44,690 nt of DNA from contig CANQYW010000012.1 in assembly GCA_947628185.1 (NCBI GenBank), forward strand, positions 1 through 44,690, written 5' to 3'. Positions 22,800 through 43,951 of this stretch are shown piece after piece; within the stretch, counting starts at the first letter, position 1, and each line of letters starts with the position of its first letter. The translations under genes were made by a program, and so were the position numbers. Source of the DNA: an uncultured Oscillospiraceae bacterium. GTDB lineage: Bacteria; Bacillota; Clostridia; Oscillospirales; Oscillospiraceae. Below the pieces are notes generated by a model. It did not search any database. It was given only the letters and a program-made list of their open reading frames with translations, and was not told the origin of the DNA.

Positions 22800-25454
22800 T
22801 TACAGGAACTGTTTCATCACCTGATAAAGTTTCTCGATTTGGAACGGTTTCCCGAGGTGATAATTCATGCCCGCCTCGATGGCCGCTATCTTGTCCTCCT
22901 CGAAGGCGTTTGCCGTCATTGCGATGATGGGGATGTTCGCAAGGGCGGGGTCGCTGAGCTTTCTTATTTCTCTCGTGGCCTGGTAGCCGTCCATGACGGG
23001 CATCATGATGTCCATCAGCACGAGGTCAATGTCCCCGTTGCTGTTCTTCACGGCGTCAACAGCCTCCTGCCCGTTGACTGCCGTCTCCACGATGAATCCC
23101 GCCTCCTCCAATATGACGGCCGCGATCTCGCGGTTGAGCTCCACGTCATCAACAAGCAGCACTTTCTTGCCCGCGAACTCCTCGGGGATGGTCTCCTGCG
23201 CCTGCGGCTCCAAATCGCCGCTGTCCGTGGCCCTCTGCAAGACGCTGTAGAGCTCAGAGAGGAAAAGCGGTTTCGCGCAAAACGCCGTCACGCCCGCCTC
23301 CCGCGCCTCGGATTCAATATCCGTCCAGTCGTAGGCGGTCAGGATGATGATCGTGGCCGTCTGACCCACCTCCTGACGTATCCGCCGGACCACCTCGATG
23401 CCGTTTAGGTCCGGCATCAGCCAGTCGATGATATACACCTGGAACGGCTCGTTCTCCTGCATGGCGTACTTTGCGCGGTAGACCGCCTCCGCGCCGGAGG
23501 TCGTCCACTCCGGCCTCAGGCCGATGACACGCAGCATCTTCTCTACGCTGGTGCAGCTGTCCATGTTGTCGTCGGCGATCAGCGCGCGGAACCCCTCCAG
23601 GTTCTTTATGACTTTAACGCCCTGCTCTTTTCCGCTCACAGCGAATCTGAGCGACACGGTGACCTCCGTGCCCTCCCCCACCTTGCTCTTTACGTCGATG
23701 GCGCCGTTCATCATATCCACGATATTCTTCGTGATCGCCATTCCGAGCCCCGTCCCCTGGATCCCGCTGACGGTCGAATTCTCCTCCCGCGTGAAGGGCT
23801 CGAAGATTTTCTGGATGAAATCCTCCTGCATGCCGATGCCGGTGTCCCGCACCACAAATTGGTAGTCCGCGTACCCCTCCGGCGCGTTCGGTTTCTCCAC
23901 GATGCGCAGCGCCACAGTCCCGCCCGGGCGCGTGAATTTCATGGAATTCGACATGATGTTTAAAAGCACCTGATTCAGACGAAGCTTGTCGCAGACGATA
24001 TTCTCATGTTCCACGTCCACCGTGTCAATGTACAGGTTCAGGCGTTTCGCTTTGACATCGGACTGGAGGATATTTCTCAGGTCATGGGTGATAGTCGAGA
24101 GGGAGCACTCCCGCTCCTCTATTTTGACTTTGCCGCTCTCGATGCGGCTCATGTCGAGGACGTCGTTTATAAGGGAGAGAAGATGCTCGCTGGAGGTCAT
24201 GATCTTGCCGAGATAACTCTTTACGGCCTCTTTCTCGTCGATATGCGTGGCGGCGAGGGTGGTGAACCCTATGATGGCGTTCATGGGCGTGCGTATATCG
24301 TGGGACATGTTGTTGAGGAAGGCGGTCTTCGCGTGGTTGGCGCGCTGTGATACGAGATACGCCTCCTCCGCCTCCTGCTTTGCCTGCTCAAGCTGTTTAT
24401 TGAGCTCCTGAAGTTCCCTTCCCGCCTCAGTTTCCGCCTTCAAAAGGCTCCTCATGTGCATGGCCCTCGCCATACACAGCATGACGATTATTGTGGCGGC
24501 CAGGAAAAATACCGCTGTCAGGACGGCGGTCTGAAGCGCCGAATCGACGACCGCCACCGTCCCCCGAGCCACCTCCTGCGCTGGATTTATATACATGGCG
24601 ATCCAGTCGTTATCCTGTATTTTACGCATGGCGTAAAAACAGTCCACGCCCCCTATCGTCACATGGGAGAGGACCAGCCCCTCCCTCTCCAGCGTCTCCA
24701 ACTGTTCACCGAAATCAATGTCCTGCTCCTCACAGGCCTTCTCCATGACGTTGAAGACATTGTACCCCGGCACCAGATTCTTATATTTCGTCTCGTCCAC
24801 GTAGAGTTTCGAGCCGTCGCTGCTGAGGATATAGGTGCTGTTGTTGCCGCTGTATGTAGGGCTGCGGAAATTGGCGCCGATGGTCTCCATGTCTATTAGG
24901 ACCCCGGCAAAGTAGATGTCCTCCCCCGTGTCCGCCATCAGGATGGGGGCGTCCAGCTTGTAGATGAAGACCATATCGTTTTCCACGTTCATCGTGTTGT
25001 ATTTTATGAAACTGATACGGTCCGTACACTCCACAAGGGGGTCGATGTCGCTGATTATCCCCCTGTCGCCGTCCGGCGCGTACATCCTCCCGTCCTCGTC
25101 GAACACGAAGGGGATCTCCGCGCTCTCCGCGTAATGCCCGGTGTTATTCTCCTTCTTTAGGAAGTCCGTCAACTCGACGGTGGTACGGGGACTGGCGTCG
25201 TCGAGGCGTCTCGTGACCTCCAGCGCCTCATTCCAGTACTGGGAGATCTTCCACTCGGTACTGTTGAATATCTGCGCGGCGATCTCGGAGAGCTGATTTA
25301 TCCTCTCCGAGTACACCGTGTTGTTCAGAGACGAACTGAGCCCCCTGATGACGAAGACACCGCAGACCGATAAGATCACGACCACGACCGTGACGAACAG
25401 GAATAACCTCTGGTATTTTCGCCAGTCATGATCCTTTTTCTCCATATCACTCAT
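22800..25454 (-). CDS. Hybrid histidine kinase with extracellular sensor and two receiver domains
   Basis: An 884-residue membrane sensor. Domains in order: membrane segment (about 17-36), extracytoplasmic Cache-like region (about 40-305), second membrane segment (about 308-330), coiled coil (about 335-375), HisKA with H-box NMSHDIRTPMNAIIGF, HATPase with MSNSMKF, DTGIGM and GTGLGM, then receiver 1 (Asp in IIDWLMPDLNG) and receiver 2 (Asp in LVLMDIMMPVMDG, KPF at the end). No DNA-binding output domain follows, so it signals to a separate protein or through phosphate transfer. The gene overlaps the upstream binding-protein gene by eight bases. A second ATG at 25445, one base after that stop, has a better ribosome site (GGGATGAG) and may be the real start. 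Confidence 0.92.
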   Translation of the reverse strand: MSDMEKKDHDWRKYQRLFLFVTVVVVILSVCGVFVIRGLSSSLNNTVYSERINQLSEIAAQIFNSTEWKISQYWNEALEVTRRLDDASPRTTVELTDFLKKENNTGHYAESAEIPFVFDEDGRMYAPDGDRGIISDIDPLVECTDRISFIKYNTMNVENDMVFIYKLDAPILMADTGEDIYFAGVLIDMETIGANFRSPTYSGNNSTYILSSDGSKLYVDETKYKNLVPGYNVFNVMEKACEEQDIDFGEQLETLEREGLVLSHVTIGGVDCFYAMRKIQDNDWIAMYINPAQEVARGTVAVVDSALQTAVLTAVFFLAATIIVMLCMARAMHMRSLLKAETEAGRELQELNKQLEQAKQEAEEAYLVSQRANHAKTAFLNNMSHDIRTPMNAIIGFTTLAATHIDEKEAVKSYLGKIMTSSEHLLSLINDVLDMSRIESGKVKIEERECSLSTITHDLRNILQSDVKAKRLNLYIDTVDVEHENIVCDKLRLNQVLLNIMSNSMKFTRPGGTVALRIVEKPNAPEGYADYQFVVRDTGIGMQEDFIQKIFEPFTREENSTVSGIQGTGLGMAITKNIVDMMNGAIDVKSKVGEGTEVTVSLRFAVSGKEQGVKVIKNLEGFRALIADDNMDSCTSVEKMLRVIGLRPEWTTSGAEAVYRAKYAMQENEPFQVYIIDWLMPDLNGIEVVRRIRQEVGQTATIIILTAYDWTDIESEAREAGVTAFCAKPLFLSELYSVLQRATDSGDLEPQAQETIPEEFAGKKVLLVDDVELNREIAAVILEEAGFIVETAVNGQEAVDAVKNSNGDIDLVLMDIMMPVMDGYQATREIRKLSDPALANIPIIAMTANAFEEDKIAAIEAGMNYHLGKPFQIEKLYQVMKQFL

Positions 25455-27246
25455 CCCAAATCAGCAGTTTCTCGGACATCGGCGGATTACCCCTCCCGTC
25501 AAAGAAATCCTTGAAGGCCTTCAATCCCTGTACGCCGCCGTCCTGGATGTTTCCGGCTGTGCTGAGTTCCTCGTCCGCGCCGCACACCACAACGGTATAC
25601 TCGGCGTCGTCCACCAGTTCTTTCCCGCCTTTTACGATGAGCTCATAGGGGAAGACGGCTTTCTTCCCGCCGGCCTCTATGGTATATCCCTTCTCGGCGT
25701 ACTCCTTCACCTGGCTGCCGGTGAGAGTCAATGTCCTTATCGTGTTATTCCATCCCGTGGGGATCACGGAGACGATCCTCTCGTCCGTCAGTGGGAGGGG
25801 CATCATGTATCCGCTGATCCCGGCGCTATTTTGGATGGAGCAGTCGTCAATGGCCGCGTTCAGCGATATCATGGCGCAGTCGGCGCCCACGGCGTCGCCG
25901 AAGATCCTCCCCACGAGCTGCGCCGTCTCTCTCTGGTCGTACACCCTGTCCACCTCAGAGAAGACGGTCGCGCCGTTGGTGAGCCAATCCTGGCACAGGG
26001 CGTCCATGTGCTCCAGGACGTACTCCTTTGTGCAGCCGCCGTTCAGATAATTGAGCGCGTCCTCGCCGATCCTCGCGAGGATGCTCTCCCACCCGGTATA
26101 CAATAGTGGCGCGGTGTGCCCGTTCCTCATCTCCTCAAGACAGGGCGCGTAGGGACTTGTGGGGTCGATCTCCCACTCGCGCAGCGAGGAGATATATGTG
26201 GTGCTGGCGTCGAAAAACGTGCTCTGTCCCTCTATGGTGGAGAGCACCTCCATGACGTGGAGCGCGTCCTCAAGTTTCTGCTCGTTCCCCTTCTCGGCCA
26301 GTTTCTTGCTGAGTCCGAAATTCTTTGACGGGAATGTGATATACATGTTCTTTGAGCCGTCCCGGGAGAGATAGGGCATGGGGGCGTAGACGTCGCCGGT
26401 GCCGTCCGCATTCTGGGTCCAGCGGTCTATCCCGCCGACGGTAAAGGCAGTGTTGCCCTCCATAAACACCTCAAAGGAGCGCTTTCCGCCAAGGGAATCC
26501 TTCCCCTGGAGGAGGCCAAGTTCGATCCACTCCTCCATGTAATCCATGGCCTCGCCAAAGCCCTGGGCCGCGGTGGCCTTCCCAGAGAGGAAATCTCTCT
26601 GCCACTGGACGCCGCCGACCGACGTGAGGTCGATGGTATCGGCGAGGTCGCAGATGTACTGGAACCCGTAACCCGCCGCGGAGCTGTCCGTTACGGCCAG
26701 GCGCACCCCCGCCTCTTCGATCTCGGGGGCCAGCGCTTTCAGCTCCTCAAAGCTCTCCGGCGCCTTCCACCCGTGCTTGTCAAAGAGGGTCTTATTGTAG
26801 GCGCACGAGAAGACGGAATACCTGGAGGGCAGCAGATAGATACCGCCGTCGATCTCCTGCTGGGCCAGGAGCGTCGGGTCATAGTTGTCCGTGAAGTCGT
26901 AGCTGGAGAGCTCCAGCAGATTCTCCCTCATCGCGTCGGGGTAGTTCGTCCAGGCGTATGTCGTGTTGTAGATATCCGGCATATCGCCGGTTATCAACTG
27001 GTCGCAGGTAAAGCGGGACCAGTTCTTACCGGTGTAGGGAATGACCTCGATTTGGATCTCGGGGTATTTTTCAGCCACAAGCTTTTTGAGCCGATTCACA
27101 TCCGAGCTATATAGTATTGTCAGGGGTTCATGGGCGCCGTCAGAGCCTGGCTTCACATCGCCGCTTGAATCGCAGCCGCACAGTAAAATTGCGATAAGCG
27201 CCAAGGCCAGCGCGCACACTGTGTACTTCCTCGTTTTACTCCTCAT
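25447..27246 (-). CDS. Lipoprotein: extracellular solute-binding domain fused to a 5'-nucleotidase C-terminal domain
   Basis: A 599-residue lipoprotein with a signal ending LLCGCDS (lipobox Cys). Residues about 30-430 form a family-1 binding protein: EPLTILYSSDVNRLKKLVAEKYPEIQIEVIPY, GDMPDIYNT, and a NTAFTVGGIDRW segment. Residues about 440-590 match the C-terminal domain of 5'-nucleotidases: ETAQLVGRIFGDAVGADCAMISL, LTDERIVSVIPTGWNNTIRTLTLTGSQVKEY and YTVVVCGADEE. The metallophosphatase half is absent, so the domain probably binds ligand rather than cleaving it. No ABC permease is adjacent; instead it overlaps a hybrid histidine kinase gene. A role as ligand receptor for that kinase is likely but inferred. 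The ATG at 27246 has a GGGGGAG site. Confidence 0.86.
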   Translation of the reverse strand: MRSKTRKYTVCALALALIAILLCGCDSSGDVKPGSDGAHEPLTILYSSDVNRLKKLVAEKYPEIQIEVIPYTGKNWSRFTCDQLITGDMPDIYNTTYAWTNYPDAMRENLLELSSYDFTDNYDPTLLAQQEIDGGIYLLPSRYSVFSCAYNKTLFDKHGWKAPESFEELKALAPEIEEAGVRLAVTDSSAAGYGFQYICDLADTIDLTSVGGVQWQRDFLSGKATAAQGFGEAMDYMEEWIELGLLQGKDSLGGKRSFEVFMEGNTAFTVGGIDRWTQNADGTGDVYAPMPYLSRDGSKNMYITFPSKNFGLSKKLAEKGNEQKLEDALHVMEVLSTIEGQSTFFDASTTYISSLREWEIDPTSPYAPCLEEMRNGHTAPLLYTGWESILARIGEDALNYLNGGCTKEYVLEHMDALCQDWLTNGATVFSEVDRVYDQRETAQLVGRIFGDAVGADCAMISLNAAIDDCSIQNSAGISGYMMPLPLTDERIVSVIPTGWNNTIRTLTLTGSQVKEYAEKGYTIEAGGKKAVFPYELIVKGGKELVDDAEYTVVVCGADEELSTAGNIQDGGVQGLKAFKDFFDGRGNPPMSEKLLIWDE

Positions 27247-27303
27247 TTTGTCTCCCCCTCGCAAACATGATGAGCCGGGTCCCGTGATTCGGCGAACAAT
27301 ATA

Positions 27304-27332
27304 ATTACACCATATTTGCAAAAACTTGTCAA
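27304..27332 (-). promoter_or_regulatory. Strong promoter for the binding-protein / hybrid-kinase operon
   Basis: On the minus strand, consensus TTGACA (27327-27332), a 17-base spacer and TGTAAT (27304-27309). The start codon lies about 57 bases downstream of the -10 box. Confidence 0.75.
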
Positions 27333-27361: not shown

Positions 27362-28222
27362 TTAAAAGCTTTCGGGACCGAAGAGGGAGGCCACCTTCTC
27401 GCGCATGTCGGCGTACTTTAAGTAGACTATGTTGAACTCGCGCACCACCGTCTCCCCCGCTATCGTGAACTTCGCAAGTTCCGGGTCGGAGTCCGCCAGG
27501 ATGTTGTACACGAAGGATATCCCGAACCCCCGCCGCACCAGGTCCATTATGAGGCGGAAACTCGATATACATATCTGCCGCCGAAACCGCTGCAGCGACT
27601 CGTTATAGCCGCTGAGGAGCCGCTCCAATATTGCCCTGGTGCCGGAGCCGGACTCCCGGTATATGACCGTCTCCCGCAGAAGTTCCTCTATCGTCACCTC
27701 CCGGCCGGCGAAGGGGTGGTCCCGGCGGCATATTCCCACGAAGGGCTCCCGCCGCAGGAGGATGTTCTCAAAGCTGTCCTTATCGAAAAAGCCCTCTATC
27801 ACGGCAAAGTCCAGCTCGTTCTCCACGAGGGACTTTAGAAGGTGCTCGGTGTTGTCCACGATGAGCGTCAGGGCGTTCCGCCCGTCCTCCAGGAACCGGC
27901 AGACGTACTCCTCTAAAAAGTAGTCCCCGATGGTCTTCGTGGCGCCCACCCGGAGGACGCTCATCTCCTTGCCCTCCAGTTTCTCCCGCAGCGCCCCCTC
28001 CTGCTGCAGGGCCGCCCGGGCGTGGTGCTCGAGGATGAGACCGCCCTCGGTCTTTGTGAGCCTGTGGTTCTCGTAGGTGAAGAGCCTCCGGCCGTACAGC
28101 CGCTCCAGGTACTGTATCTGCTGCGTCACCGCCGGCTGAGAGAGATGGCATAGCTCCGCCGTCCGGCGGTAGCTCATGCAGTCGCAGAGCGTCAGGAACG
28201 TCTTTATCCTGTAGTCTATCAT
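27362..28222 (-). CDS. LysR-family transcriptional regulator
   Basis: A 286-residue regulator. The N-terminal winged helix-turn-helix is typical: FLTLCDCMSYRRTAELCHLSQPAVTQQIQYLERLYGRRLF. A linker helix and a two-lobed effector domain (about 90-286) follow, with the VIYRESGSGTRAILERLL segment found in the CysB/CysL/CbbR-like branch. It is divergent from the sulfur-type fusion gene, the usual layout for a LysR protein and its target. The ATG at 28222 has AAAGGAG six bases away; an upstream in-frame ATG at 28255 lacks a site. The effector is unknown, but the neighbour suggests a sulfur compound. Confidence 0.9.
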   Translation of the reverse strand: MIDYRIKTFLTLCDCMSYRRTAELCHLSQPAVTQQIQYLERLYGRRLFTYENHRLTKTEGGLILEHHARAALQQEGALREKLEGKEMSVLRVGATKTIGDYFLEEYVCRFLEDGRNALTLIVDNTEHLLKSLVENELDFAVIEGFFDKDSFENILLRREPFVGICRRDHPFAGREVTIEELLRETVIYRESGSGTRAILERLLSGYNESLQRFRRQICISSFRLIMDLVRRGFGISFVYNILADSDPELAKFTIAGETVVREFNIVYLKYADMREKVASLFGPESF

Positions 28223-28237
28223 CTGTTCTCCTTTTTC

Positions 28238-28252
28238 ATAAGCTGTGCTTAT
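28238..28252. promoter_or_regulatory. Inverted repeat in the LysR / fusion-gene intergenic region
   Basis: ATAAGC-TGT-GCTTAT is a perfect 6-3-6 repeat that contains a T-N11-A-type spacing, as in LysR sites. It lies close to the start of the lysR gene and about 20 bases upstream of the -35 box of the fusion-gene promoter. Confidence 0.45.
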
Positions 28253-28273
28253 CATATAATAAAAACTTTTAAG

Positions 28274-28302
28274 TTGATTTTATCACATGCGGGCGCTATA
28301 AT
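28274..28302 (+). promoter_or_regulatory. Promoter for the sulfur-type fusion gene
   Basis: TTGATT (28274-28279), a 17-base spacer and TATAAT (28297-28302), about 54 bases before the start codon. Confidence 0.7.
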
Positions 28303-28355
28303 CAACATAAATAAATGCGGGACCAAATCCCGGATGGACAGGAAGGAGCACACAC

Positions 28356-30914
28356 ATGAACATTGTCGTAATCGGCGGGGTCGCCGCCGGCACCAAGACC
28401 GCCGCGAAACTTCTGCGGCAGGACCGGGGCGCGAAAGTCACCGTGTACACGAAGGGCAGTGACATATCCTACGCGGGGTGCGGTCTGCCCTACTATGTGG
28501 GCGGCAGCATTGAGAGCCGGGACGAGCTCATCGTCAACACCCCGGCGAAGTACACCGGCCTCACGGGCGTTGAAGTGCAGACTGGGATGGAGGCCGTGTC
28601 TCTTGACGCCGCGGCCAAGACCGTGCGGTTCGCGGACGGCCAGGAGATAAGCTACGATAAGCTGGTCATAGCCACGGGCGCGGAGCCCTTTGTGCCGGAT
28701 GTCCCGGGGACGGACCTACCCGGGGTCTTCACCATGCGCACCCCTGACGACGCCATTGGACTGCGGGCGTACATAGATGAGCACGCCTGCCGCAGCGCCG
28801 TTGTGGTGGGGGGAAGTTTCATCGGCCTTGAGATCGCGGAGAACCTTATGGCGAAGGGTGTCAGCGTCACAGTAGTAGACATGGCCGCCCAGGTACTGCC
28901 GGGGCTCGTGGACCCGGAGATTGCCGACTACATACGCCGCCAGCTCCAGGCCCGGGGGATGCGCATCGTCACCGGCGCGGCCCTCACGGGCGTACTGGGC
29001 GGCGAGAGCGCCAGGGGCGTCAGCACCTCCGTGGGCTCCTTCCAGGGGGATCTTGTGGTTCTGGCAATAGGCATACGCCCCGCCACATCCTGGCTCCAGG
29101 GCTCCGGCGTGGAGCTAAACCGAGGGGCCGTGGTGGTGGACAGGTACCAGAGGACGAATCTGGCGGACGTCTACGCCGTGGGCGACTGCGCCCAGGTGTT
29201 CCACCGCGTGACGGGCGGCGGCCACTACTCCGCCATGGGCTCCACCGCCAACATAACCGGCAGGCTGCTGGCCATGAATTTGACCGGCACCGACTCCCCC
29301 TACGGGGGGTGCCTGGGCACGGGCGTCGTGAGACTCGCCTCCGACCTCAACGCCGGCCGCACGGGCCTCACGGAGCTCCAGGCCAAGGCCGCGGGCTACG
29401 AGGTCATAACGGACGTCTGCGTCACCGACGACAAGGCCCACTACTACCCCGGCTCCGGCGCGTTCATCACGAAACTGGTGGCGGACAAGGTGAGCCACCG
29501 GCTGTTGGGAATACAGGTGCTGGGCTCCGGGGCCGTTGACAAGATGGTGGACATAGCCGTCACCGGCATATCCGCCGGTCTCAAGGTGGAGGACTTTGAC
29601 ACCCTTGACTTCGCCTACGCCCCGCCCTTCTCCACCGCCATACACCCCTTCGTGCAGGCCTGTTACATACTTGAAAATAAGATGAACGGCTCCTACAAGA
29701 GCATGACACCCGCTGAGTACATCGCCACCAAGGCCGCCGGGTACAAGGTCATAGACGTGTGTCCCGAGCCCAAGATCCCGGGGGCGAAGTGGGTGGACCT
29801 CGCCAAAGTGACGGGGCCCATCGAGGGTCTTGAGCTCGATGACAAGCTCCTTTTGGTGTGCGTCCGGGGCAAGCGGGCATACTTCCTGCAAAATAGGCTC
29901 AAGTTCTACGGCTACACCAACACCCTGGCGCTGGAGGGCGGCCTCACGGTGAACGACGTAAAGGTGGACTTCACCGGCGCGGCCCTGCCCCCGGAGGAGA
30001 TAAAGCGCGTCAAGGGCCTGGGGTGCCTCCAGGACAAGCGCTACCCGGACGTCTTCAACGTGCGCATCATAACCCGCAACGGGAAGATAACCTCCGAGGA
30101 GCAGCGGGTGATAGCGGAGGCCGCCGATAAGTACGGCTCCGGCGAGGTCACCATGACGACGCGCCTGACGCTCGAGATCCAGGGCGTGCCCTACGCCAAC
30201 ATCCAGCCGATCATCGACTACCTCAACCAGTACGGGCTCTCCACCGGCGGCACTGGGAGCCTTGTCCGGCCTGTGGTCTCCTGCAAGGGCACCACCTGCC
30301 AGTACGGCCTTGCGGACACCTTCGGCCTCAGCGAGAAACTCCACGAGCGGTTCTACGTGGGCTACCACAGCGTCACGCTACCCCACAAATTCAAGATATG
30401 CGTGGGCGGGTGCCCCAACAACTGCGTGAAACCGAGCCTCAACGACATCGGCATCATGGGCCAGAAGGTCCCCATGGTGAATCACGCCCTCTGCCGGGGC
30501 TGCGGCAAGTGCCAGGTGGCGGAGGCCTGCCCCGTGGGCGTGGCGAAACTCAAGGACGGCCGGATACACGTGGACGCGGGCGCCTGCAACAACTGCGGAA
30601 GGTGCGTCGGAAAGTGCCCCTTCGGGGCCTTCGACGAGTCCCAGACCGGTTTCAAGGTGTTCATCGGTGGCCGCTGGGGCAAGAGGATAACCCACGGCCA
30701 GCCCCTCACCAAGATATTCACCTCCGAGGAGGAGGTCATGGACGTGGTGGAGAGGGCCATCCTGCTCTTCCGGGACGAGGGCGTCACCGGCGAGCGCTTT
30801 GCCGACACCATAGATAGGCTCGGTTTCGACTACGTGAACGACAAGCTCATAAACGGCGGCATGGACAAGGACGCCATACTCGCGAAGACCGTGAAGGGCG
30901 GCGCCACCTGCTGA
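28356..30914 (+). CDS. Fusion of CoA-disulfide-reductase-like flavoprotein, rhodanese, sirohaem sulfite/nitrite reductase and 2x[4Fe-4S] ferredoxin
   Basis: An 852-residue multidomain redox protein. Residues about 1-445 form an FAD/NAD(P)H disulfide reductase: VVIGGVAAGTKTA, redox Cys42 in SYAGCGLPYY, VVVGGSFIGLEIAENL, and VYAVGDCAQ. Residues about 455-540 form a rhodanese with Cys502 in VCVRGKRA. Residues about 550-710 resemble a sulfite/nitrite reductase repeat with TTRLTLEIQGV, Cys643 and Cys648, and Cys682 and Cys686 (CVGGCPNNC). Two ferredoxin motifs follow (CRGCGKC, CNNCGRC). NAD(P)H electrons could pass to sulfane sulfur or sulfite held on the rhodanese, but this is inference. The first Cys pair is CX4C, not the usual CX5C, and the first ferredoxin motif has an X5 gap before its last Cys. 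AGGAAGGAG precedes the ATG. Confidence 0.88.
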   Translation: MNIVVIGGVAAGTKTAAKLLRQDRGAKVTVYTKGSDISYAGCGLPYYVGGSIESRDELIVNTPAKYTGLTGVEVQTGMEAVSLDAAAKTVRFADGQEISYDKLVIATGAEPFVPDVPGTDLPGVFTMRTPDDAIGLRAYIDEHACRSAVVVGGSFIGLEIAENLMAKGVSVTVVDMAAQVLPGLVDPEIADYIRRQLQARGMRIVTGAALTGVLGGESARGVSTSVGSFQGDLVVLAIGIRPATSWLQGSGVELNRGAVVVDRYQRTNLADVYAVGDCAQVFHRVTGGGHYSAMGSTANITGRLLAMNLTGTDSPYGGCLGTGVVRLASDLNAGRTGLTELQAKAAGYEVITDVCVTDDKAHYYPGSGAFITKLVADKVSHRLLGIQVLGSGAVDKMVDIAVTGISAGLKVEDFDTLDFAYAPPFSTAIHPFVQACYILENKMNGSYKSMTPAEYIATKAAGYKVIDVCPEPKIPGAKWVDLAKVTGPIEGLELDDKLLLVCVRGKRAYFLQNRLKFYGYTNTLALEGGLTVNDVKVDFTGAALPPEEIKRVKGLGCLQDKRYPDVFNVRIITRNGKITSEEQRVIAEAADKYGSGEVTMTTRLTLEIQGVPYANIQPIIDYLNQYGLSTGGTGSLVRPVVSCKGTTCQYGLADTFGLSEKLHERFYVGYHSVTLPHKFKICVGGCPNNCVKPSLNDIGIMGQKVPMVNHALCRGCGKCQVAEACPVGVAKLKDGRIHVDAGACNNCGRCVGKCPFGAFDESQTGFKVFIGGRWGKRITHGQPLTKIFTSEEEVMDVVERAILLFRDEGVTGERFADTIDRLGFDYVNDKLINGGMDKDAILAKTVKGGATC

Positions 30915-31093: not shown

Positions 31094-32023
31094 ATGAAAA
31101 AGACGATCGTTGCCCTTGTGTGCCTCACGGCGATCCTCTCAGGTTGCGCCGCCGAGGGTACACCCAGCGGCGGGGGCGTCACCTTCACCGACGCCCTGGG
31201 GCGGAGCGTCACGGTGGAGCGGGAGCCGGAGCGGGTGGCCTCGCTTCTGGGTAGTTTCGCGGACGTGTGGGTCCTGGCCGGTGGGGACCTCTGCGCCGCC
31301 GCCGAGGACGCCTGGGAGGACTTCCGCCTGGAGCTCCCTGACGCCGTCAATTTAGGCGGGGCCCACTCTCCGAGCCTTGAACTGCTGCTCTCCTCGGACC
31401 CCGACTTCGTCATCGCCAGCGCCTCCACCGCCGGGGACGTGGAGATGCTGGATACCCTGGAGGCGGCCAAAATAACTGTGGCCTACTTTGACGTGGATAA
31501 CTTTGAGGACTACTTGGAGATGCTAAAGATCTGCACGGACATAACTGGGCGCGAGGACCTATACGAGAAAAATGGCCTCGAGGTGAAGGCCCAAATAGAG
31601 TCCGTGAAGGCGCGGTACGCAGAACTCCAAATTCCCGAGGAGCAGCGGTCGGTGCTCCTCATCCGGGCCTCCGAGAGCTCCATAAAGGCCAAGGGCAGCC
31701 GGGGCACGATCCTCGGGGAGATGCTCGCCGACATGGGGTGCCTCAATATTGCGGACTCTGAGAGCTCCATCTTGGAGGATCTGAGCGTGGAGGCCGTCAT
31801 CGCCGCGCGGCCCTACAGGGTGTTCGTTGTGACCATGGGCGACGACGCCGAGGCGGCGGCGGGTGTGGATGTCATGTTCCGGGAGGATCCCGCCTGGGGC
31901 TCCCTGGAGGCCGCGAGGGAGGGGCGGGTGTACATCATGGATAAGTCCCTATTTAACCTTAAACCCAACGACAGGTGGGGTGAGGCATATGAGAAACTCT
32001 ACGACGCGCTCACGGAGGAATAA
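31094..32023 (+). CDS. FecB/BtuF-type ABC transporter substrate-binding lipoprotein
   Basis: A 309-residue lipoprotein: signal with lipobox LSGCAAE, then a two-lobed helical-backbone binding fold. FTDALGRSVTVEREPERVASLLGSFADVWVLAG is the usual start of the family, with DPDFVIASAST in the first lobe. The C-terminal LFNLKPNDRWGEAYEKLYDAL is common in clostridial members. It would deliver an iron chelate, haem, corrinoid or similar metal complex to the permease and ATPase encoded next. It overlaps the permease gene by 35 bases. The substrate cannot be read from sequence. A structured leader upstream suggests ligand-responsive control, and a cobalamin riboswitch controls the next transporter but not this one. 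Confidence 0.86.
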   Translation: MKKTIVALVCLTAILSGCAAEGTPSGGGVTFTDALGRSVTVEREPERVASLLGSFADVWVLAGGDLCAAAEDAWEDFRLELPDAVNLGGAHSPSLELLLSSDPDFVIASASTAGDVEMLDTLEAAKITVAYFDVDNFEDYLEMLKICTDITGREDLYEKNGLEVKAQIESVKARYAELQIPEEQRSVLLIRASESSIKAKGSRGTILGEMLADMGCLNIADSESSILEDLSVEAVIAARPYRVFVVTMGDDAEAAAGVDVMFREDPAWGSLEAAREGRVYIMDKSLFNLKPNDRWGEAYEKLYDALTEE

Positions 32024-33008
32024 AGTTGCCCTCTACTTCGCCCTCTCGGCGCTGACGCTCCTCTCCGCCGTGACGGGCCTCCTATTGGGGGCGGCGGAGC
32101 TGAGTCTCGGTGACCTATTTGGGGCTCTCCGGGCCGGGATGGGCTCCAGGACGCCGGAGGCCCTTATCCTCTGGTACGCCAGGATGCCCCGGGTGCTGGG
32201 GAGCCTCCTCTCCGGGGCGGCACTGGCGGTCTCCGGGGCCGTCATACAGGGCGTGCTCTCAAACGGCCTCGCCTCCCCCAGCGTCATCGGGGTGAACGCC
32301 GGGGCGGGCCTCGCGGTGACGGCCTGCGCGGCGGCGGGAGTCATGGGCGGGTGGAGGCTCTCCCTCGCGGCCTTCGCCGGGGCTTTCGCGGCGGTGATGG
32401 CTGTGAGCCTCGGGGCGCGGCGTTTCGGGGCCTCCCGGGGGACGGTGATACTCATGGGCGTCGCCATGAACAGCCTCTTGGGGGCCTTCTCCGACGCCAT
32501 AACCGTCCTCGCGCCGGAGGTCGCCGTCCAGCGCAACGGCTTTCGCATCGGGGACTTCTCCGCCGTCACCTACCCGAAACTCATCCCCGCAGCCGCCGTC
32601 ATACTCCTCTCATTACTCATAATATCCACGCTGACAAATGAGCTGGAAGTTCTCTCCCTGGGGGAGGACGGCGCCCGGGCGCTGGGGCTCAACACCGGGG
32701 CCGTGCGGACGCTCCTCCTCATGCTGGCGGCGGCGCTGGCGGGGGCGGCGGTGAGTATGGCGGGGCTTCTCTCCTTCGTGGGCCTCATGGTGCCCCACGC
32801 CCTCCGGCTGCTCTCCGGCGGGGAGGCCCGGCGCCTCATACCCCTCTGCGCCCTGGCGGGGGCGGGGTTCGTCACCGCCTGCGACACGCTCTCCCGCGTC
32901 ATCCTCGCCCCCTACGAGTTCCCAGTGGGGATAGTCATGGCGTTCCTGGGCGCGCCATTTTTCCTCTTCATACTAATACGCGGCAAGGGGGGTCACGGCC
33001 GTGCTTGA
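31989..33008 (+). CDS. FecCD-family ABC transporter permease
   Basis: A 339-residue permease with about nine to ten membrane helices. Family motifs are clear: RMPRVLGSLLSGAALAVSGAVIQGVLSNGLASPSVIGVNAGAGL near the start, and SFVGLMVPHALRLLSGGEARRLIPLCALAGAGF near the end, which contains the coupling helix that meets the ATPase. The start is taken as ATG 31989, inside the end of the binding-protein gene. The sequence before it in the longer open frame does not fit the family. The substrate type (chelated iron, haem or corrinoid) is open. Confidence 0.88.
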   Translation: MRNSTTRSRRNKVALYFALSALTLLSAVTGLLLGAAELSLGDLFGALRAGMGSRTPEALILWYARMPRVLGSLLSGAALAVSGAVIQGVLSNGLASPSVIGVNAGAGLAVTACAAAGVMGGWRLSLAAFAGAFAAVMAVSLGARRFGASRGTVILMGVAMNSLLGAFSDAITVLAPEVAVQRNGFRIGDFSAVTYPKLIPAAAVILLSLLIISTLTNELEVLSLGEDGARALGLNTGAVRTLLLMLAAALAGAAVSMAGLLSFVGLMVPHALRLLSGGEARRLIPLCALAGAGFVTACDTLSRVILAPYEFPVGIVMAFLGAPFFLFILIRGKGGHGRA

Positions 33009-33768
33009 AGTCACAGGACTATACGGCGGCTACCCCGGAAAGATCGTTCTGCGGGACGTATACCTCACCGCCCGGGCCGGGGAGATAACGGCCCTCATGG
33101 GCCCCAACGGCTGCGGGAAGTCAACGCTCCTCAAGACCATCTGCGGGATACTGCCTGTCAAAGCCGGGCGCGTGACGCTGGGCAACACGGACCTCACCGC
33201 CCTACCCCGGAGGGAGCTCTCCCAGCGGGCGGCGTACCTCGCCCAGAGCCGGGAGACCCCGGAGCTCACCGTGGAGCGTCTGGTGCTCCACGGGCGGTTC
33301 CCATACCTCGGCTACCCCCGGCGGTATAGGCGGGAAGATCTTGAGGCGGCGCGGCGGGCTATGGGGGAGATGGGCGTCCTCGGCCTCGCCGCAACGCCCC
33401 TGGGCCAACTCTCCGGCGGGCAGCGGCAGAACGCCTACATCGCCATGGTCTTGGCCCAGGACACGGACCTCGTGCTCCTCGACGAGCCCACCACATACCT
33501 TGACGTCTCCTGCCAGCTCCAATTTCTGCGCCTCGCCCGGCGCCTTGCGGACTCCGGAAAACACGTGCTCCTGGCGATACACGACCTCTCCCACGCTCTG
33601 AAGGTTGCGGACTCGGCGGCGCTCATGCGCGATGGCGCCCTGGTCCTCCAGGGGACGCCGGAGGAGGTCTTTGCCTCCGGCGTCCTCGAGGATGTCTTCA
33701 ACGTCAGGGTCATGCGGGTGGAGACCCCCGGCGGATGGTACTACTTTGCCGTGGAGCTTGAGGCTTGA
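33001..33768 (+). CDS. FepC/BtuD-type ABC transporter ATPase
   Basis: A 255-residue ATPase that powers the upstream permease. Walker A GPNGCGKST, Q-loop QSRETPE, signature LSGGQRQNAYIAMVLAQD, Walker B LVLLDEPTTYLD and H-loop AIHDLSHAL are all present. It starts with GTG at 33001, overlapping the permease stop by eight bases. Its own stop overlaps the -35 box of the next promoter, so the two transporter operons are very tightly packed. Confidence 0.93.
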   Translation: MLEVTGLYGGYPGKIVLRDVYLTARAGEITALMGPNGCGKSTLLKTICGILPVKAGRVTLGNTDLTALPRRELSQRAAYLAQSRETPELTVERLVLHGRFPYLGYPRRYRREDLEAARRAMGEMGVLGLAATPLGQLSGGQRQNAYIAMVLAQDTDLVLLDEPTTYLDVSCQLQFLRLARRLADSGKHVLLAIHDLSHALKVADSAALMRDGALVLQGTPEEVFASGVLEDVFNVRVMRVETPGGWYYFAVELEA

Positions 33769-33799: not shown

Positions 33800-33957
33800 C
33801 GTTGAAGAACTTAATATCTACAGGGACTGCGGTTTGAAAGGTTGCATACTGAATAGATCAAACGGGGAAGTCGGTTTGAATCCGACGCAACTGCCATTAC
33901 TGTAACTGACGTCCGATTACACCTCTGGGGCGTCTCAAGTCAGAATACCGGCCCGGT
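33800..33957 (+). ncRNA. Cobalamin riboswitch
   Basis: The core of the B12 aptamer is recognisable. GGGGAAGTCGGTTTGAATCC (33864-33883) forms a hairpin with CCGAC (33870-33874 with 33882-33886). This is followed by GCAACTGCCATTACTGTAAC (B12 box-like) and, near the end, CAAGTCAGAATACCGGCC. It sits between a strong promoter and a binding-protein gene of the FecCD transporter class, and the whole cbi/cob operon follows. Peripheral stems differ from the longest forms, so it may be a compact subtype. Confidence 0.88.
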
Positions 33958-33984
33958 TCTTTATCGCCATCATTCCTGGGTATA

Positions 33985-34053: not shown

Positions 34054-34156
34054 GGGGTGGATCTGCTGCACATTTTTTGCGGTGACGCAAGGGATGTGCC
34101 TTTATTTTATCCCGGGGGCGGCGCTGAGAAAATACACATTTTTAAGGAGAAAAACA

Positions 34157-35407
34157 ATGAAAAAAAGGATCCTACCCCTGCTGCTCTCGCTTATTTTGCT
34201 CGTCTCCATCCTCGCCGGGTGCTCCCGCCCCGCGGATGAGGGCTCCAAGGCCCCGGATGGGGAGAACAACGCTGAAATGAACTCCCCCCAGGAGGGGGAG
34301 AACAACGCGGACAACACCCAGCCCCCGGAGGGGACAGACGGCGGCGGCGAAAATCAATCCCCGGAGGAGAACTACGACGGCAAGCTCGTCTTTGACCACT
34401 CCATGGAGCTCTCCTACGCCAAGTGTTTCACCATTGACTACTATAAGGGCGGCTACAAGCTGGCAACTATCTCCGACGGCACAAAACTTCTCACTGTGCC
34501 GGAGGGCATGAGCGTCCCCGCCGATGTGCCGGAGGGCACCATAGTCCTCCAGGAGCCCCTGGGGCACATACTTGTGTCCTCCGCGCCGGTGGTGTCGCTA
34601 ATTAGCGCCGTTGGGGCCTTAGACGCCGTGTCCCTCACCACGAACGACGTGGACACCTGGTACATAGACGAGGTGAAGGATGCCATAAACTCCGGCTCCC
34701 TCACCTATGTGGGCGAGTACGACGCGCCGGACTACGAGAAGATAACAGCCGACGGCACCCGCCTTGCCGTCTACTCCGCCATGCTCACCGAGGACGTGGA
34801 GGCGGAGCTCAAATCTCTCGGCGTCGGCGTCATGGTGGATAGGTCCTCCGACGAGGACCACCCCCTGGGGCGGGCCGAGTGGATAAAGTTCTACGGGGCG
34901 CTTCTCGGACGGGAGGAGGCCGCCCAGGAGGTATTCAGCGGCCAGGAGGCCATAATAAACGAGCTCTCCGAGGTCCCCAGCACCGGCAAGAGCGTGGCGG
35001 TATTCTACATAACCTCCAGCGGCTCCCTCTACGCCCGCAAGGCCGGCGACTACATGGCCAAGATGGTGGAGCTGGCCGGCGGCGTGTACGTGCCGGGTGA
35101 CGTGGGCGTCGGTGAGTCCGGCACCTCCAAGATGGAGTACGAGGCCTTCTATGACGCCGCGAAGGACGCGGACTACATAATCTACGTCTGGTCCATGGGC
35201 GGCAAGCCCGAGACGCTTGAGGACTTCCTCGGCCGTGCGGACATCCTCTCGGAGTTCAAGGCCGTGAAGGAGGGGAACGTCTGGTGCACCACCCCCGACT
35301 TCTTCCAGATACAGGCCACCATCGGCAGCATGGTCAATGACATCCGCCTCATGCTGGAGGCCGACGGGACCGTGGACGCCCTGACATACTTAACCAAACT
35401 CAAGTGA
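34157..35407 (+). CDS. ABC transporter substrate-binding lipoprotein, corrinoid type
   Basis: A 416-residue lipoprotein: signal ending ILAGCSRP, a low-complexity Glu/Asn/Pro/Gly linker (about 25-75), then a BtuF/FecB-like binding domain. The domain shows FTIDYYKGGYKLATISDGTK at its start, and AVFYITSSGSLYARKAGDYMAKMVELAGGVYV in the second lobe. It is the first gene after the cobalamin riboswitch, so it most likely binds cobalamin or an incomplete corrinoid. The ATG at 34157 has AAGGAG seven bases away; the open frame upstream to 34082 is not used. The long linker would extend it from the membrane. Confidence 0.87.
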   Translation: MKKRILPLLLSLILLVSILAGCSRPADEGSKAPDGENNAEMNSPQEGENNADNTQPPEGTDGGGENQSPEENYDGKLVFDHSMELSYAKCFTIDYYKGGYKLATISDGTKLLTVPEGMSVPADVPEGTIVLQEPLGHILVSSAPVVSLISAVGALDAVSLTTNDVDTWYIDEVKDAINSGSLTYVGEYDAPDYEKITADGTRLAVYSAMLTEDVEAELKSLGVGVMVDRSSDEDHPLGRAEWIKFYGALLGREEAAQEVFSGQEAIINELSEVPSTGKSVAVFYITSSGSLYARKAGDYMAKMVELAGGVYVPGDVGVGESGTSKMEYEAFYDAAKDADYIIYVWSMGGKPETLEDFLGRADILSEFKAVKEGNVWCTTPDFFQIQATIGSMVNDIRLMLEADGTVDALTYLTKLK

Positions 35408-36453
35408 TGGGTCGCGGGGACGTTCTTCGCCGGGGCGCGGTATTCGTCTCTCTGGCAGTGCTCTTCCTGCTGGCGGTGGTATGGAACATAAATACCGGCA
35501 GCGTGGACATACCCGTCCGGGAGATATGGCGTATCATCTTCCTCCGGCGGGAGATAGAGAGCGGCGCGGTACCGGCGGACGCCGCGGCCTTCAATATTAT
35601 ATGGAAACTCCGTCTAAAACGGGTGCTCCTCTCGGCGGTGCTGGGGGGCGCCCTGGCGCTCTCGGGTTTCCTCCTGCAGACCTTCTTCCGCAACCCGATA
35701 GCGGGCCCCTTCGTGCTGGGGATATCCTCTGGGGCCAGGATGTTCCTGGCCCTGGTGACGATTGCCCTGGGCGCTTACATTCCCTCCCTTCCGGTGGCGG
35801 TGACTGTGGCGGCGGCGTTTTTGGGGTCCATGCTCTCAATGCTATTGGTGCTGGCCTTTAGCGGGCGGGTGAGGAACATGTCGATGCTCCTTGTCATCGG
35901 CATTATGATAAGCTACATCTGCTCCGCAGTGACGGACTTCCTCATTAATTTCGCAAAAGAAGCGGAGATAGTGAACCTCACCCACTGGTCCATGGGCAGT
36001 TTCTCCGGGGGGAGTTGGCGGGACGTGGGTGTCTCGGCCCTTGTGGTCCTCCCGGCGGCGCTGGGGGTATTTCTCCTCGCGAAACCCATCTCGGCCTACG
36101 CCCTGGGGGAGGGCTACGCCCAGAGCCTGGGGCTGGACGTGCGGCGGTTCCGGGTGGTGCTCATAATCCTCTCCAGCGTCCTCTCGGCGTGCGTCACGGC
36201 CTTCGCGGGGCCCATATCCTTCGTGGGGATCGCCGTGCCCCACATTTTGAGGGTCCTTTTAAAGTCCTCAAAGCCCATACTCATGATCCCCGCCTCGTTC
36301 CTCGGCGGGGCGGTCTTCTGCATGGTCTGCGACCTCATAGCCAGGACCGTCCTCTCCCCCACCGAGCTCTCCGTTGGGACGGTGACAAGCGCCCTGGGCG
36401 CGCCGGTGGTCATATGGCTCATGGTCTCCCGCCGGCGGGAGCAGTCGGAGTGA
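35407..36453 (+). CDS. FecCD-family permease, corrinoid transporter
   Basis: A 348-residue permease with about ten membrane helices. Motifs: LRLKRVLLSAVLGGALALSGFLLQTFFRNPIAGPFVLGISSGARMF at the N-terminal side and GPISFVGIAVPHILRVLLKSSKPILMIPASFLGGAVFCMVCD toward the end, the latter including the coupling helix. Its start shares one base with the binding-protein stop (TGATG). An in-frame GTG three bases earlier is possible. It is paired with the ATPase that follows. Cargo is inferred from the riboswitch and the operon. Confidence 0.88.
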   Translation: MGRGDVLRRGAVFVSLAVLFLLAVVWNINTGSVDIPVREIWRIIFLRREIESGAVPADAAAFNIIWKLRLKRVLLSAVLGGALALSGFLLQTFFRNPIAGPFVLGISSGARMFLALVTIALGAYIPSLPVAVTVAAAFLGSMLSMLLVLAFSGRVRNMSMLLVIGIMISYICSAVTDFLINFAKEAEIVNLTHWSMGSFSGGSWRDVGVSALVVLPAALGVFLLAKPISAYALGEGYAQSLGLDVRRFRVVLIILSSVLSACVTAFAGPISFVGIAVPHILRVLLKSSKPILMIPASFLGGAVFCMVCDLIARTVLSPTELSVGTVTSALGAPVVIWLMVSRRREQSE

Positions 36454-36464
36454 GGAGGTCTGAG

Positions 36465-37592
36465 ATGTCAGAGGCGTACTTTGAAACGAATGGCCTCACC
36501 GTGGGCTACGGCGGGAGGCCCCTGATCCGGGACATTTCCCTCTCCCTCAAGCGGGGCGGGATAATGACGCTCATCGGCCCCAACGGCGCGGGGAAGTCCA
36601 CCATACTCAAGACCGTCACCCGCCGCATACCCGCCATATCCGGCGACGTTCTACTCGGAGGCCAGTCCCTCCTTCGCATGCGTGGCCGGGACCTTGCGCG
36701 AAAGATGGCCGTTGTGCTGACGGACCGCCTGCGGCCCGAGCTCATGACGTGCTTTGACGTGGCCGCCGCCGGGCGCTACCCCTACACAGGGAGTTTCGGC
36801 CTCCTCTCCGCAAGGGACAAGAGCATAGTCCTCGACTCCCTCGCCCAGGTGAACGCCTCAAACCTCGCGGGGGCGGACTTTAACTCCGTGAGCGACGGCG
36901 AGCGCCAACTCGTCTTACTCGCTCGTGCCATAGCCCAGGAGCCGGAGATAATAGTCCTTGACGAGCCCACATCATACCTCGACATACGCCACAAGATAGA
37001 GCTCCTTGAGGTGCTGCGGGGGATGGCAAAGGCGCGGGGCGTCACAGTCCTCATGAGTCTCCACGAACTCGATATGGCCTCCAAGGTCTCAGACGTAATG
37101 GTCTGCGTGGGGGACGGGGCCGTGGCGGCCTCCGGCCCCCCGGAGGACGTCTTCTCAGATGAGCTGGTGCGGCGGCTCTACCACTTAGAGCGCGGCTCCT
37201 ACAGCGTGGCCCTCGGCAGCGCGGAGCTCCCGAGGCCCGAGGGTCAGCCCCGGGTATTCGTCCTGGGGGGCGGGGGGCGCGGGATACCCCTCTACCGGGG
37301 CCTACAGAGGGCGGGCGTGCCCTTCAGCGCCGGGATACTCCCGGAGAATGACTTAGATCTCGCCGTGGCGGGGCCCCTCGCGGCGGAAGTCGTCACCTCG
37401 CCTCCCTTCGCCCCCGCGGGTCCCCGGGAGATGGAGGCCGCCCGGGCGCTCATATCCTCATCGAAGGCGGTGATCGACGCCGGGGCGCCGGCGGAACACT
37501 ACCCCGCGAGGGACGAGCTACTAAAATACGCCCGGACCCTCGGGATACCCATTATCGAGAGTTTAGAGCACATCACGGAGGTGTTAAGATGA
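36465..37592 (+). CDS. BtuD-type ATPase with a C-terminal extension of unknown function
   Basis: A 375-residue protein. The first 255 or so residues are a standard ABC ATPase: GPNGAGKST, signature VSDGERQLVLLARA, Walker B IIVLDEPTSYLD and H-loop SLHELDMA. About 115 extra residues follow, with the start VFVLGGGGRGIPLYRGLQRAGVPFSAGIL, a DLDLAVAGPL segment and an end AEHYPARDELLKYARTLGIPI. Similar tails occur on archaeal and clostridial corrinoid-transporter ATPases. The glycine-rich opening suggests a nucleotide- or corrinoid-binding module. A GAGGAGG site precedes the ATG. The gene overlaps cbiA by four bases. Confidence 0.9.
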   Translation: MSEAYFETNGLTVGYGGRPLIRDISLSLKRGGIMTLIGPNGAGKSTILKTVTRRIPAISGDVLLGGQSLLRMRGRDLARKMAVVLTDRLRPELMTCFDVAAAGRYPYTGSFGLLSARDKSIVLDSLAQVNASNLAGADFNSVSDGERQLVLLARAIAQEPEIIVLDEPTSYLDIRHKIELLEVLRGMAKARGVTVLMSLHELDMASKVSDVMVCVGDGAVAASGPPEDVFSDELVRRLYHLERGSYSVALGSAELPRPEGQPRVFVLGGGGRGIPLYRGLQRAGVPFSAGILPENDLDLAVAGPLAAEVVTSPPFAPAGPREMEAARALISSSKAVIDAGAPAEHYPARDELLKYARTLGIPIIESLEHITEVLR

Positions 37593-39923: not shown

Positions 39924-40948
39924 CGAAAGACAACCCCCACGGCGGCGACATTTACGGAGAGCCGCCGAAAATCGACTTCTCCGCCAGCCTCAACCCCCTG
40001 GGTATGCCGCCGGAGGTGCGGCGGGCGCTATCTGAGTGCGCCGAAACTTGCGCCGCCTACCCGGACCCCTACTGTCGGGCCCTGCGGGAGGCCATCGGGC
40101 ATTTTGAGGGCGTCCCCGCCGGAAACATCCTCTGCGGGGCCGGGGCCTCGGAGCTCATCTACCACTACGCCGCCGCCCTCACCGGGGAGGGCCCGGGGCT
40201 CATCCTGGCGCCGGCCTTCTCGGAGTACGCCCTGGCCCTGGAGCTCGCCGGGCGGGGGGCGGAGTACCGGGTCCTCACGCCGGAGGAGGGTTTTCACCTC
40301 GCCGGGGGCCTCGGGGACCTGGGGCGGTACTCGGCGGTGTTCCTCTGCTCCCCCAATAACCCCACGGGCCTTGCCCTGGAGCCGGAGGTCATATGGGAGA
40401 CCGCCGGGAGCGGCGCGAATATACTCCTCGATCTCTCCTTTTTGGACCTCACCCTCTCACCGGGCCGCTACCGGGTGCCGGAGCTCACGGCCCGGTACCC
40501 CAACGTCACAGTTCTGCGCTCGCCGGGAAAGAGTTTCGCCGTGCCCGGCGTGCGGCTGGGGTACGCCATATCCTCGGACCGCGCCCTACTTGAGCGAATG
40601 TCGGAGCGGGGCCAGTGCTGGAATGTCTCCGTCCCCGCCGCCGCCGCAGGCGAGGCCGCCATGGGCTGCGGGGAGTGGCTGCGCCGCTCAGCGGTCATTA
40701 TTGCGGAGGAGCGGGAGAGATTGACTCGTGAACTAAAAAATTTGGGCCTCACCGTCTACCCCGGCGAGGCAAATTTCCTGCTTATGTATTCCGCTGCGGA
40801 CATCGTGACACCCCTAAAAAGATCCGGCCTCGCCCTCCGGGACTGCCGGAACTTCGTGGGGCTGGGGCCGGGGTATGTCCGGGCGGCGGTGCGCCGGAGG
40901 GAGGAGAACGACGCCCTCCTCCGGGCTTTAAGGGAGGTCATAGCATGA
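39899..40948 (+). CDS. cobD: L-threonine-O-3-phosphate decarboxylase
   Basis: This PLP enzyme makes (R)-1-amino-2-propanol phosphate, the arm used by CbiB. The 349-residue protein is a class I aminotransferase-fold enzyme. It has [42 protein letters not shown] and the PLP-binding Lys in [16 protein letters not shown]. The usual DEAFIDF segment is DLSFLDL, with the Asp kept but the Glu replaced. Histidinol-phosphate aminotransferase is a close relative, but the operon context favours CobD. Confidence 0.9.
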
Positions 40949-42908: not shown

Positions 42909-42939
42909 TGACAACGGCGTGCTTTGATCATGATAAGTC

Positions 42940-42981: not shown

Positions 42982-42988
42982 CCATTAC

Positions 42989-43929: not shown

Positions 43930-43951
43930 CCGCACCTCCGAAAGTAAAAAT

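Follow-up and report, generated by a model that had tools for sequence, protein, structure and literature searches.

The Fusion Gene and Its Parts

Contig CANQYW010000012.1 of an uncultured Oscillospiraceae bacterium (assembly GCA_947628185.1), analyzed here as a single stretch of 44,690 nucleotides that we call the window, carries at 28356..30914 (+) a gene for an 852-residue fusion protein in which a CoA-disulfide reductase (CoADR) is followed by a rhodanese and then by a sulfite reductase module, into which a ferredoxin is inserted; the chain ends in a short tail, GGATC. The four kinds of domain, which a sequence-only reading of the window had already proposed, are borne out by the open reading frame list, Pfam, NCBIfam, phmmer and the alignment of homologs. 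The CoADR-type flavoprotein part, with active-site Cys42, spans residues 1-446 (28356..29693, +), and the rhodanese part, with Cys502 in the loop CVRGKRAY, residues 447-546 (29694..29993, +); both were delimited by Pfam, phmmer and alignments. The Dsr-like sulfite reductase module (Pfam) makes up residues 547-852 (29994..30911, +) and contains the cysteine pairs C643-X4-C648 and C686-X3-C690 as well as R570, R603, R638, K678 and K680, which were mapped on the F420-dependent sulfite reductase, Fsr (PMC10229431). Inserted into it, at residues 708-759 (30477..30632, +; Pfam and alignments), is a 2x[4Fe-4S] ferredoxin. The tail itself, residues 848-852 (30897..30911, +), was delineated from homolog alignments and ends in Cys852, which is proposed below to be part of a sulfur-carrying arm.

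Pfam places Pyr_redox_2 at residues 1-282, Pyr_redox_dim at 329-429, NIR_SIR_ferr at 565-625 and NIR_SIR at 634-826, with Fer4 models matching between residues 708 and 768. The two domains of the siroheme-[4Fe-4S] superfamily lie above their cut-offs (NIR_SIR 98 bits against 27, NIR_SIR_ferr 57.1 against 24), and the Rhodanese match at 463-531 slightly below (20.7 against 22.2). Despite this sub-threshold score, the rhodanese part is real by the measure of homology, because the phmmer alignment with the CoADR-rhodanese structures 6pfz, 8a56, 3icr and 3nta runs from residue 1 to 511-530 and because C502 is invariant. A flavoprotein with Cys42 followed by a rhodanese with Cys502, as in CoADR-rhodanese proteins, is found in all 78 aligned fusion proteins. 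Residues 562-825, in turn, align with the C-terminal half of Fsr in the same comparison with solved structures. In NCBIfam, the halves score below cut-off against models for CoADR, NirB, AsrC and Dsr; the CoADR equivalog models are missed at 353 versus 458 bits (NF007123) and 339.1 versus 578.8 (TIGR03385).

A flavoprotein followed by a siroheme module is also the order seen in NirB. The fusion could accordingly be a NirB-like electron chain, in which NAD(P)H would reduce the flavin, the flavin the ferredoxin clusters and these the siroheme, with sulfite or nitrite undergoing six-electron reduction at one site, the rhodanese being structural and the tail aiding assembly. The fusion itself would favor such direct electron transfer, and the NirB model TIGR02374 does match in three stretches, with 223.8 bits, but this is far below its cut-off of 578.35, and a Pfam scan of the fusion gave no BFD/[2Fe-2S] match.

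The fusion is neither an assembly error nor a chance open reading frame. A scan of one genome per species (84,980 species) gave 411 stretches encoding a relative of some part, and in each of the best 80, which were kept, the match covers no fewer than 811 of the 852 residues, with an identity of 69-80%. The records in question are named as Lachnospiraceae, Oscillospiraceae or other Firmicutes, most of them from the gut, and include isolates such as Parablautia, Pseudoflavonifractor, Flavonifractor and Ructibacterium. The search for the same domain order that the sequence-only reading had called for thus succeeds at every kept locus, and a one-off fusion can be dismissed; elsewhere, the same two parts occur as neighboring genes. 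By these matches the fusion is a member of a widespread clostridial family. Its distribution is patchy: it is present in none of 33 other genomes of the window's own genus, in 6 of 391 genomes of an even draw of the class, the window's included (by open-frame length), and in a one-contig genome of a different class (G716). With such a pattern, it appears to have been often lost or moved.

Antisense to the fusion gene runs a 417-residue open frame (29115-30368, -). Long open frames of one family, among whose members is a frame antisense to the fusion gene, were seen in 19 relatives. The frame in the window probably just reflects codon use at high G+C.

Conserved Residues and the Sulfite Pocket

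Residue conservation was counted over 78 aligned proteins, namely the window's and those of 77 loci, the partial-match loci L010, L033 and L064 being left out; one counted row, L015, comes from DNA with an internal stop. Invariant in all 78 are C42, C278, C436, C502, C643, C648, C686, C690 and C852, together with the eight ferredoxin cysteines 713, 716, 719, 725, 744, 747, 750 and 754. The key residues that had been singled out from the sequence alone, Cys42, Cys502, the two cysteine pairs and the two ferredoxin motifs, are therefore each conserved throughout. Where flavoprotein and rhodanese are encoded by a separate gene next to the sulfite reductase module (split partners, see below), C42 and C502 are kept as well, in 15/15 and 18/18 proteins in which the residue is covered. 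Their conservation hence points to more than a mere electron donor, which would need neither. A NirB-like chain would require none of C42, C502 and C852, yet all are invariant. The fusion also retains Y363 and Y364, which we take to be the CoADR tyrosines. C436 was considered as a further shared active residue and ruled out, being Val in 18/18 split partners and Gly in all seven generic CoADR-rhodanese relatives. The rhodanese loop of the partner type reads C-x-[KR]-G-[KR]; in the seven generic relatives compared it is CQSGLR or CHSGLR.

Of the canonical cluster motif CX5C-Xn-CX3C, the second half is present at 686/690, and the first is replaced by CX4C at 643/648, which the alignment with Fsr identifies as a true one-residue deletion. 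The sequence-only reading had noticed this spacing and suspected an unusual cofactor site. The spacing is real, but it is not peculiar to this protein: the clade shows CX4C in 89/89 rows, of which 38 possess both tail and partner, 47 lack both and 4 are mixed, and the clades just outside it show CX5C in 11/11. That the spacing marks a damaged or exceptional site in this protein is thereby ruled out, and CX4C is, to judge from the alignment, an old trait of a whole clade of small Dsr-like sulfite reductases.

What would such a module bind? R570, R638, K678 and K680 align with R355, R423, K460 and K462 of Fsr, and R603 with its R388; the former are described as the sulfite-binding residues of Fsr, the latter as an assimilatory trait (PMC10229431). 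None of the five occurs in fewer than 37/38 tail-and-partner, 46/47 other CX4C and 11/11 CX5C rows. As the sulfite-pocket residues of Fsr are kept, the module thus appears to be equipped for sulfite; the assimilatory-type R603 would also suit a NirB-like chain.

A Terminal-Cysteine Tail that Varies with the Partner Gene

The last residue of the fusion, C852, had been overlooked in the sequence-only reading. Over the aligned fused proteins, the tail GGATC has a mean conservation of 98.5%, compared with 75% for the preceding 18 residues, some of which are fixed; in terms of conservation, the tail is a tip on a more variable linker. Outside the fusions, it was counted in 68 stand-alone CX4C loci (the genomes G179, G208, G382 and G387 contribute two each), with 11 CX5C rows and one fused row, L174, set aside. 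A CoADR-rhodanese gene adjoins the module on the same strand in 18 of these 68 loci, directly upstream every time (18/18), and the products of these partner genes are 47-58% identical to the window protein, generic relatives reaching about 40% at most. The tail is present in 17/18 modules with an upstream CoADR-rhodanese partner versus 3/50 without (Fisher p 4e-12, relatedness not corrected), and the strict pattern GGA[TSQ]C in 17/18 versus 1/50. The eighteenth partnered module, L161, was not taken for a genuine exception: its frame diverges some 40 residues short of where the protein should end and stops 39 nucleotides from the contig edge. A CoADR-rhodanese of the partner type (48% identity or more) occurs in 7 of 45 genomes, all of them with either the fused gene or the adjacent pair; in the other genomes, no match exceeds 40% identity.

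A maximum-likelihood tree of 100 module rows takes in 80 loci, the window's module and 19 fused proteins out of the 77; its alignment leaves off the last 14 residues, so that the tail could not shape it. On this tree, partner and tail changed together in 4.5 of five independent supported pairs on average, and in opposite directions in 0.0. The closest tailless relatives, L131-L134 and L144 (61-68% identical), branch between the fused L174 and the remaining fused proteins, and a joint loss of flavoprotein, rhodanese and tail would therefore be the simplest reading for them, on a tree that cannot tell gain from loss. The module of L143 ends in GGAASL, with no cysteine, and its genome yielded no partner at E up to 1e-60. 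In L126, the module carries a fused N-terminal C_GCAxxG_C_C redox domain (L126:3268-4614) and keeps GGATC. As a separate observation, L135:6633-8036 encodes a module likewise fused to an N-terminal C_GCAxxG_C_C domain, without the tail.

One could argue that the two halves are independent activities, a CoA-persulfide/polysulfide reductase and a ferredoxin-dependent sulfite reductase, both making sulfide and fused for co-expression only, with the terminal cysteine serving as a redox switch or dimer contact. Both halves do occur as separate genes, the solved CoADR-rhodanese proteins stand alone, and tailless modules exist without a partner. However, tail and partner change together on the tree, the dedicated partner type was seen among the 45 genomes only alongside the fusion or the adjacent pair, and this partner has an altered rhodanese loop, which is why we consider independent activities improbable. 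That the tail tracks the CoADR-rhodanese partner also counts against the NirB-like chain, an explanation we rate as somewhat unlikely. In our view the terminal cysteine tail is the most informative feature of the protein, and it suggests that sulfur is handed from module to module, in place of a plain passage of electrons. The sequence-only reading had held that NAD(P)H, sulfane sulfur and six-electron chemistry could be joined in one chain; the joining is well supported by sequence, and it is the way in which the parts would cooperate that the tail recasts as a relay.

The Regulator, Gene Neighbors and the Substrate

The regulator gene predicted upstream is confirmed: a LysR-type protein is encoded at 27362..28255 (-; open reading frame list, Pfam and NCBIfam), divergent from the fusion gene, and the gene coordinates leave a divergent promoter region of 100 nucleotides between the two (28256..28355). 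Among its best NCBIfam matches, those to the selenium-metabolism LysR model (129.8 bits, cut-off 250) and to YeiE (104.2, cut-off 480) are both below cut-off, and its resemblance to the sulfite-responsive YeiE type is one of place and neighbors only. In Salmonella, YeiE is a LysR protein that is reported to bind sulfite and to control yeiH, the main sulfite-resistance gene (PMC12880088). A YeiH-like gene lies in the fetched flanks of 7/18 split, 5/81 fused and 0/50 partnerless loci, as called by PF03601 for the representative L125 and by tblastn with the L125 protein for the rest, and LysR matches lie near 12/18 split, 43/81 fused and 10/50 partnerless loci, where the flank allows. Given the Salmonella precedent, the YeiH-like neighbors together with the LysR gene make sulfite the likely substrate and signal.

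A substrate other than sulfite, be it nitrite, selenite, thiosulfate or another sulfur oxyanion, finds some backing in the regulator, whose best match is the selenium-metabolism model, and in the Fsr of M. thermolithotrophicus, which is reported to reduce nitrite with a lower Km, and also selenite (PMC10229431). The rhodanese, the CoADR and the YeiH-like neighbors fit sulfur instead, and no nitrate or nitrite gene was found among the scanned window neighbors or ten scanned proteins of relatives. Such a substrate is therefore very improbable in our estimate.

The YeiH-like gene near the split pair is located at L125:8482-9516 (PF03601) and is also seen in L124, L127, L142, L145, L147 and L155, an arrangement fitting a sulfite-stress operon. 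In the one-contig genome of L123, an ArsP_1 permease and a DUF1980 protein are encoded directly downstream of the split pair (L123:4963-6830). In the window, 22800-27321 (-) holds an 884-residue hybrid sensor kinase-like open reading frame beside a 624-residue lipoprotein-like solute-binding one, both judged from their translations only.

Siroheme Supply and the Downstream Importer

In 23 of the 31 genomes carrying the fusion, it is the sole NIR_SIR protein. In the genomes G080-G082, HemB and HemC are accompanied by a single TP methylase of SUMT size, with no other SUMT. On both grounds, siroheme seems to be made for the fusion enzyme in hosts of this type. In five of the 31 (G000, G066, G078, G085 and G086), there is a single TP methylase, RsmI-sized by our reading, and neither HemB nor HemC was found in any of them; for Ructibacterium gallinarum (G086), whose genome is 99% complete, HemB, HemC and SUMT were all not found. 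Several hosts, apparently including that of the window, would be without siroheme synthesis. Matches to a Met8-SUMT-HemD protein, whose domain composition was demonstrated for L052, occur at 14/81 fused, 1/18 split and 6/50 partnerless loci. At L052:11353-13644 and similar loci, this triple-domain gene adjoins the fusion, the genomes concerned being ones where neither HemB nor HemC was found.

Directly downstream of the fusion gene, the window encodes an ABC importer, consisting of a Peripla_BP_2 substrate-binding protein (31094..32023, +; Pfam and NCBIfam), a FecCD permease (31863..33008, +; Pfam), which is given here as the listed open reading frame and probably starts further down, and an ABC ATPase (33001..33768, +; Pfam). 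Such an importer lies within 3 kb of the fusion in 19/24 genomes without HemB/HemC found versus 1/15 with (Fisher p 1e-5, relatedness not corrected). This table drops six genomes with less than 3 kb downstream and no match; with no flank filter, the counts are 19/28 versus 1/17 (p 4e-5, 45 genomes, again not corrected for relatedness). HemC was tested in 36 genomes and HemB in 41, so that the pair was covered in part of the tabulated genomes. On the tree, importer and de novo synthesis gave four independent pairs, 2.5 in the expected way, 0.0 against and 1.5 with no difference, which is not significant.

A role of this importer in B12 uptake was considered and is less likely, because a cobalamin riboswitch (33812-33970) follows it and precedes a second importer with corrinoid genes. 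The region behind the riboswitch, 34082-44650, encodes this second FecCD-type importer, CobD/CbiB, CobQ/CobB-type amidotransferases, an aminotransferase, BtuR and CobS, that is, corrinoid salvage. On the present gene content, it is a fair reading that 31094-33768 encodes a candidate importer of siroheme, a precursor or some other tetrapyrrole. The siroheme of the window's host would then probably be imported, perhaps by the importer just described. No siroheme importer is mentioned in the titles and abstract openings listed by a search of open papers for siroheme import.

Discussion

What can be deduced from these comparisons about the reaction of the fusion protein? We propose, and give it an even chance, that it is a two-stage cytoplasmic sulfite reductase that would convert sulfite to sulfide within one chain, or one dimer, by way of a Cys852 relay. 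In the first stage, sulfite would bind to the siroheme-[4Fe-4S] of the Dsr-like module and be reduced to the zero-valent level, with electrons entering the siroheme through the two ferredoxin clusters. In the second, Cys852 would take up the zero-valent sulfur as a persulfide and deliver it to Cys502 of the rhodanese, from which it would pass to CoA and Cys42 of the flavoprotein, to be released as sulfide with NAD(P)H. Thus, the flavoprotein would be a second reductase, acting on CoA persulfide, rather than the source of electrons for the siroheme. The simplest reading of the co-variation of tail and partner is a Cys852 in contact with both halves. The scheme starts from the domains, the conserved residues, the tail and its co-occurrence with the partner, all of which are seen in the aligned sequences; how sulfur passes from site to site, what donates the electrons and that Cys852 carries a persulfide are what we infer from them. 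Physiologically, such an enzyme could serve in sulfite detoxification or as an electron sink, turned on by the divergent LysR regulator.

Several observations weigh against this proposal. R603 is an assimilatory-type trait, and Fsr, with the same arginine, is held to reduce sulfite fully, by six electrons and without intermediates (PMC10229431); against this, zero-valent sulfur was reported in 2026 as the direct product of assimilatory enzymes (PMC13188885). Five pairs do not let the sign test for the joint change of partner and tail get below p = 0.06 (median 0.0625, with values up to 0.625), and one opposite pair appeared in 2 of 200 random pairings. Three partnerless modules keep the tail, L126 as GGATC, L139 as SGATC and L162 as TTATC. 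The LysR of the window is only loosely YeiE-like, LysR matches are also found near the 10 of 50 partnerless loci mentioned above, and the sulfite reductases of Salmonella are reported to have given no growth gain under aerobic sulfite stress (PMC12880088). Finally, no HemB, HemC or SUMT was found in the window genome, a metagenome-assembled genome that is 83% complete.

In its full extent, our proposal is of a soluble and self-contained sulfite reductase that works as a persulfide (or trisulfide) relay. A single chain, with a swinging arm tipped by its terminal cysteine to pass zero-valent sulfur from the siroheme to the rhodanese/CoA-persulfide reductase, would stand in for DsrAB, DsrC and the trisulfide reductase, and in hosts without tetrapyrrole synthesis an adjacent dedicated importer of siroheme or a precursor would supply it with its cofactor. 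This combined proposal is tentative, and we hold it to be somewhat short of probable. If it is true, gut Clostridia without DsrAB reduce sulfite through an uncharacterized enzyme, and one gut-bacterial protein does what takes several separate proteins in other organisms. A source of intestinal sulfide may then be overlooked, because the halves of the fusion match the CoADR, NirB, AsrC and Dsr models below cut-off. The tail offers a simple test of how siroheme hands over sulfur, a question hitherto tied to the membrane-linked Dsr system, and the importer pattern proposes a sharing of siroheme, or of a late precursor, between gut bacteria.

Each part of the protein is known. Searches of open papers, among which subscription journals are largely missing, turned up no account of the parts joined together, of the dedicated partner type, of the tail or of the way the tail varies with the partner, and none of the listed titles and abstract openings named a protein of this architecture. 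An inducible, ferredoxin-linked sulfite reductase, reportedly obtained in pure form from Clostridium pasteurianum in the 1980s, may or may not be of the same family.

How does the fusion compare with known systems? Its residues 1 to 511-530 align along the CoADR-rhodanese fusions (PDB 3icr, 8a56 and 3nta, and NoxA-3, 6pfz), and it shares Cys42, the rhodanese Cys502 and the tyrosine pair with the seven generic relatives. Those chains, however, have 551-588 residues and stop after the rhodanese, whereas here an altered rhodanese loop is followed by a sulfite reductase module with a tail. This module, in turn, resembles AsrC, classed as a group III Dsr-like protein (PMC3448663), other Dsr-like proteins and the C-terminal half of Fsr (PDB 7np8, 7npa) in being a single siroheme module with an inserted 2x[4Fe-4S] ferredoxin and the five pocket residues. 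It differs from AsrC and Fsr in its CX4C in place of CX5C and in having CoADR-rhodanese in place of the F420H2 oxidase or AsrAB; against the AsrC model TIGR02912 it scores 106.7 bits versus a cut-off of 324.1, and its partner is CoADR-rhodanese, not asrAB. Beyond the part aligned with Fsr, it has a terminal cysteine arm that is absent from 47/50 partnerless relatives.

With the large subunit of the nitrite reductase NirB, the fusion has in common a flavoprotein and a siroheme module in one chain. Unlike NirB, it has no BFD domain, stays below the TIGR02374 cut-off and adds the CoADR cysteine, the rhodanese, the ferredoxin insert and the tail. In its proposed logic, the fusion parallels DsrAB with DsrC and DsrMKJOP: sulfur that is only partly reduced departs from the siroheme bound to a cysteine carrier, and its reduction is finished at another site. 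DsrC has a C-terminal cysteine arm. Its role as the carrier is described in PMC10229431. The fusion gave no DsrC family match at E up to 0.1, and its terminal cysteine arm is the one analogous feature; the protein has one terminal cysteine, no DsrC fold and a single module instead of A plus B. It also differs from the Dsr system in that arm and second reductase would be part of the same chain, or of the product of an adjacent gene, in a soluble and NAD(P)H-linked form.

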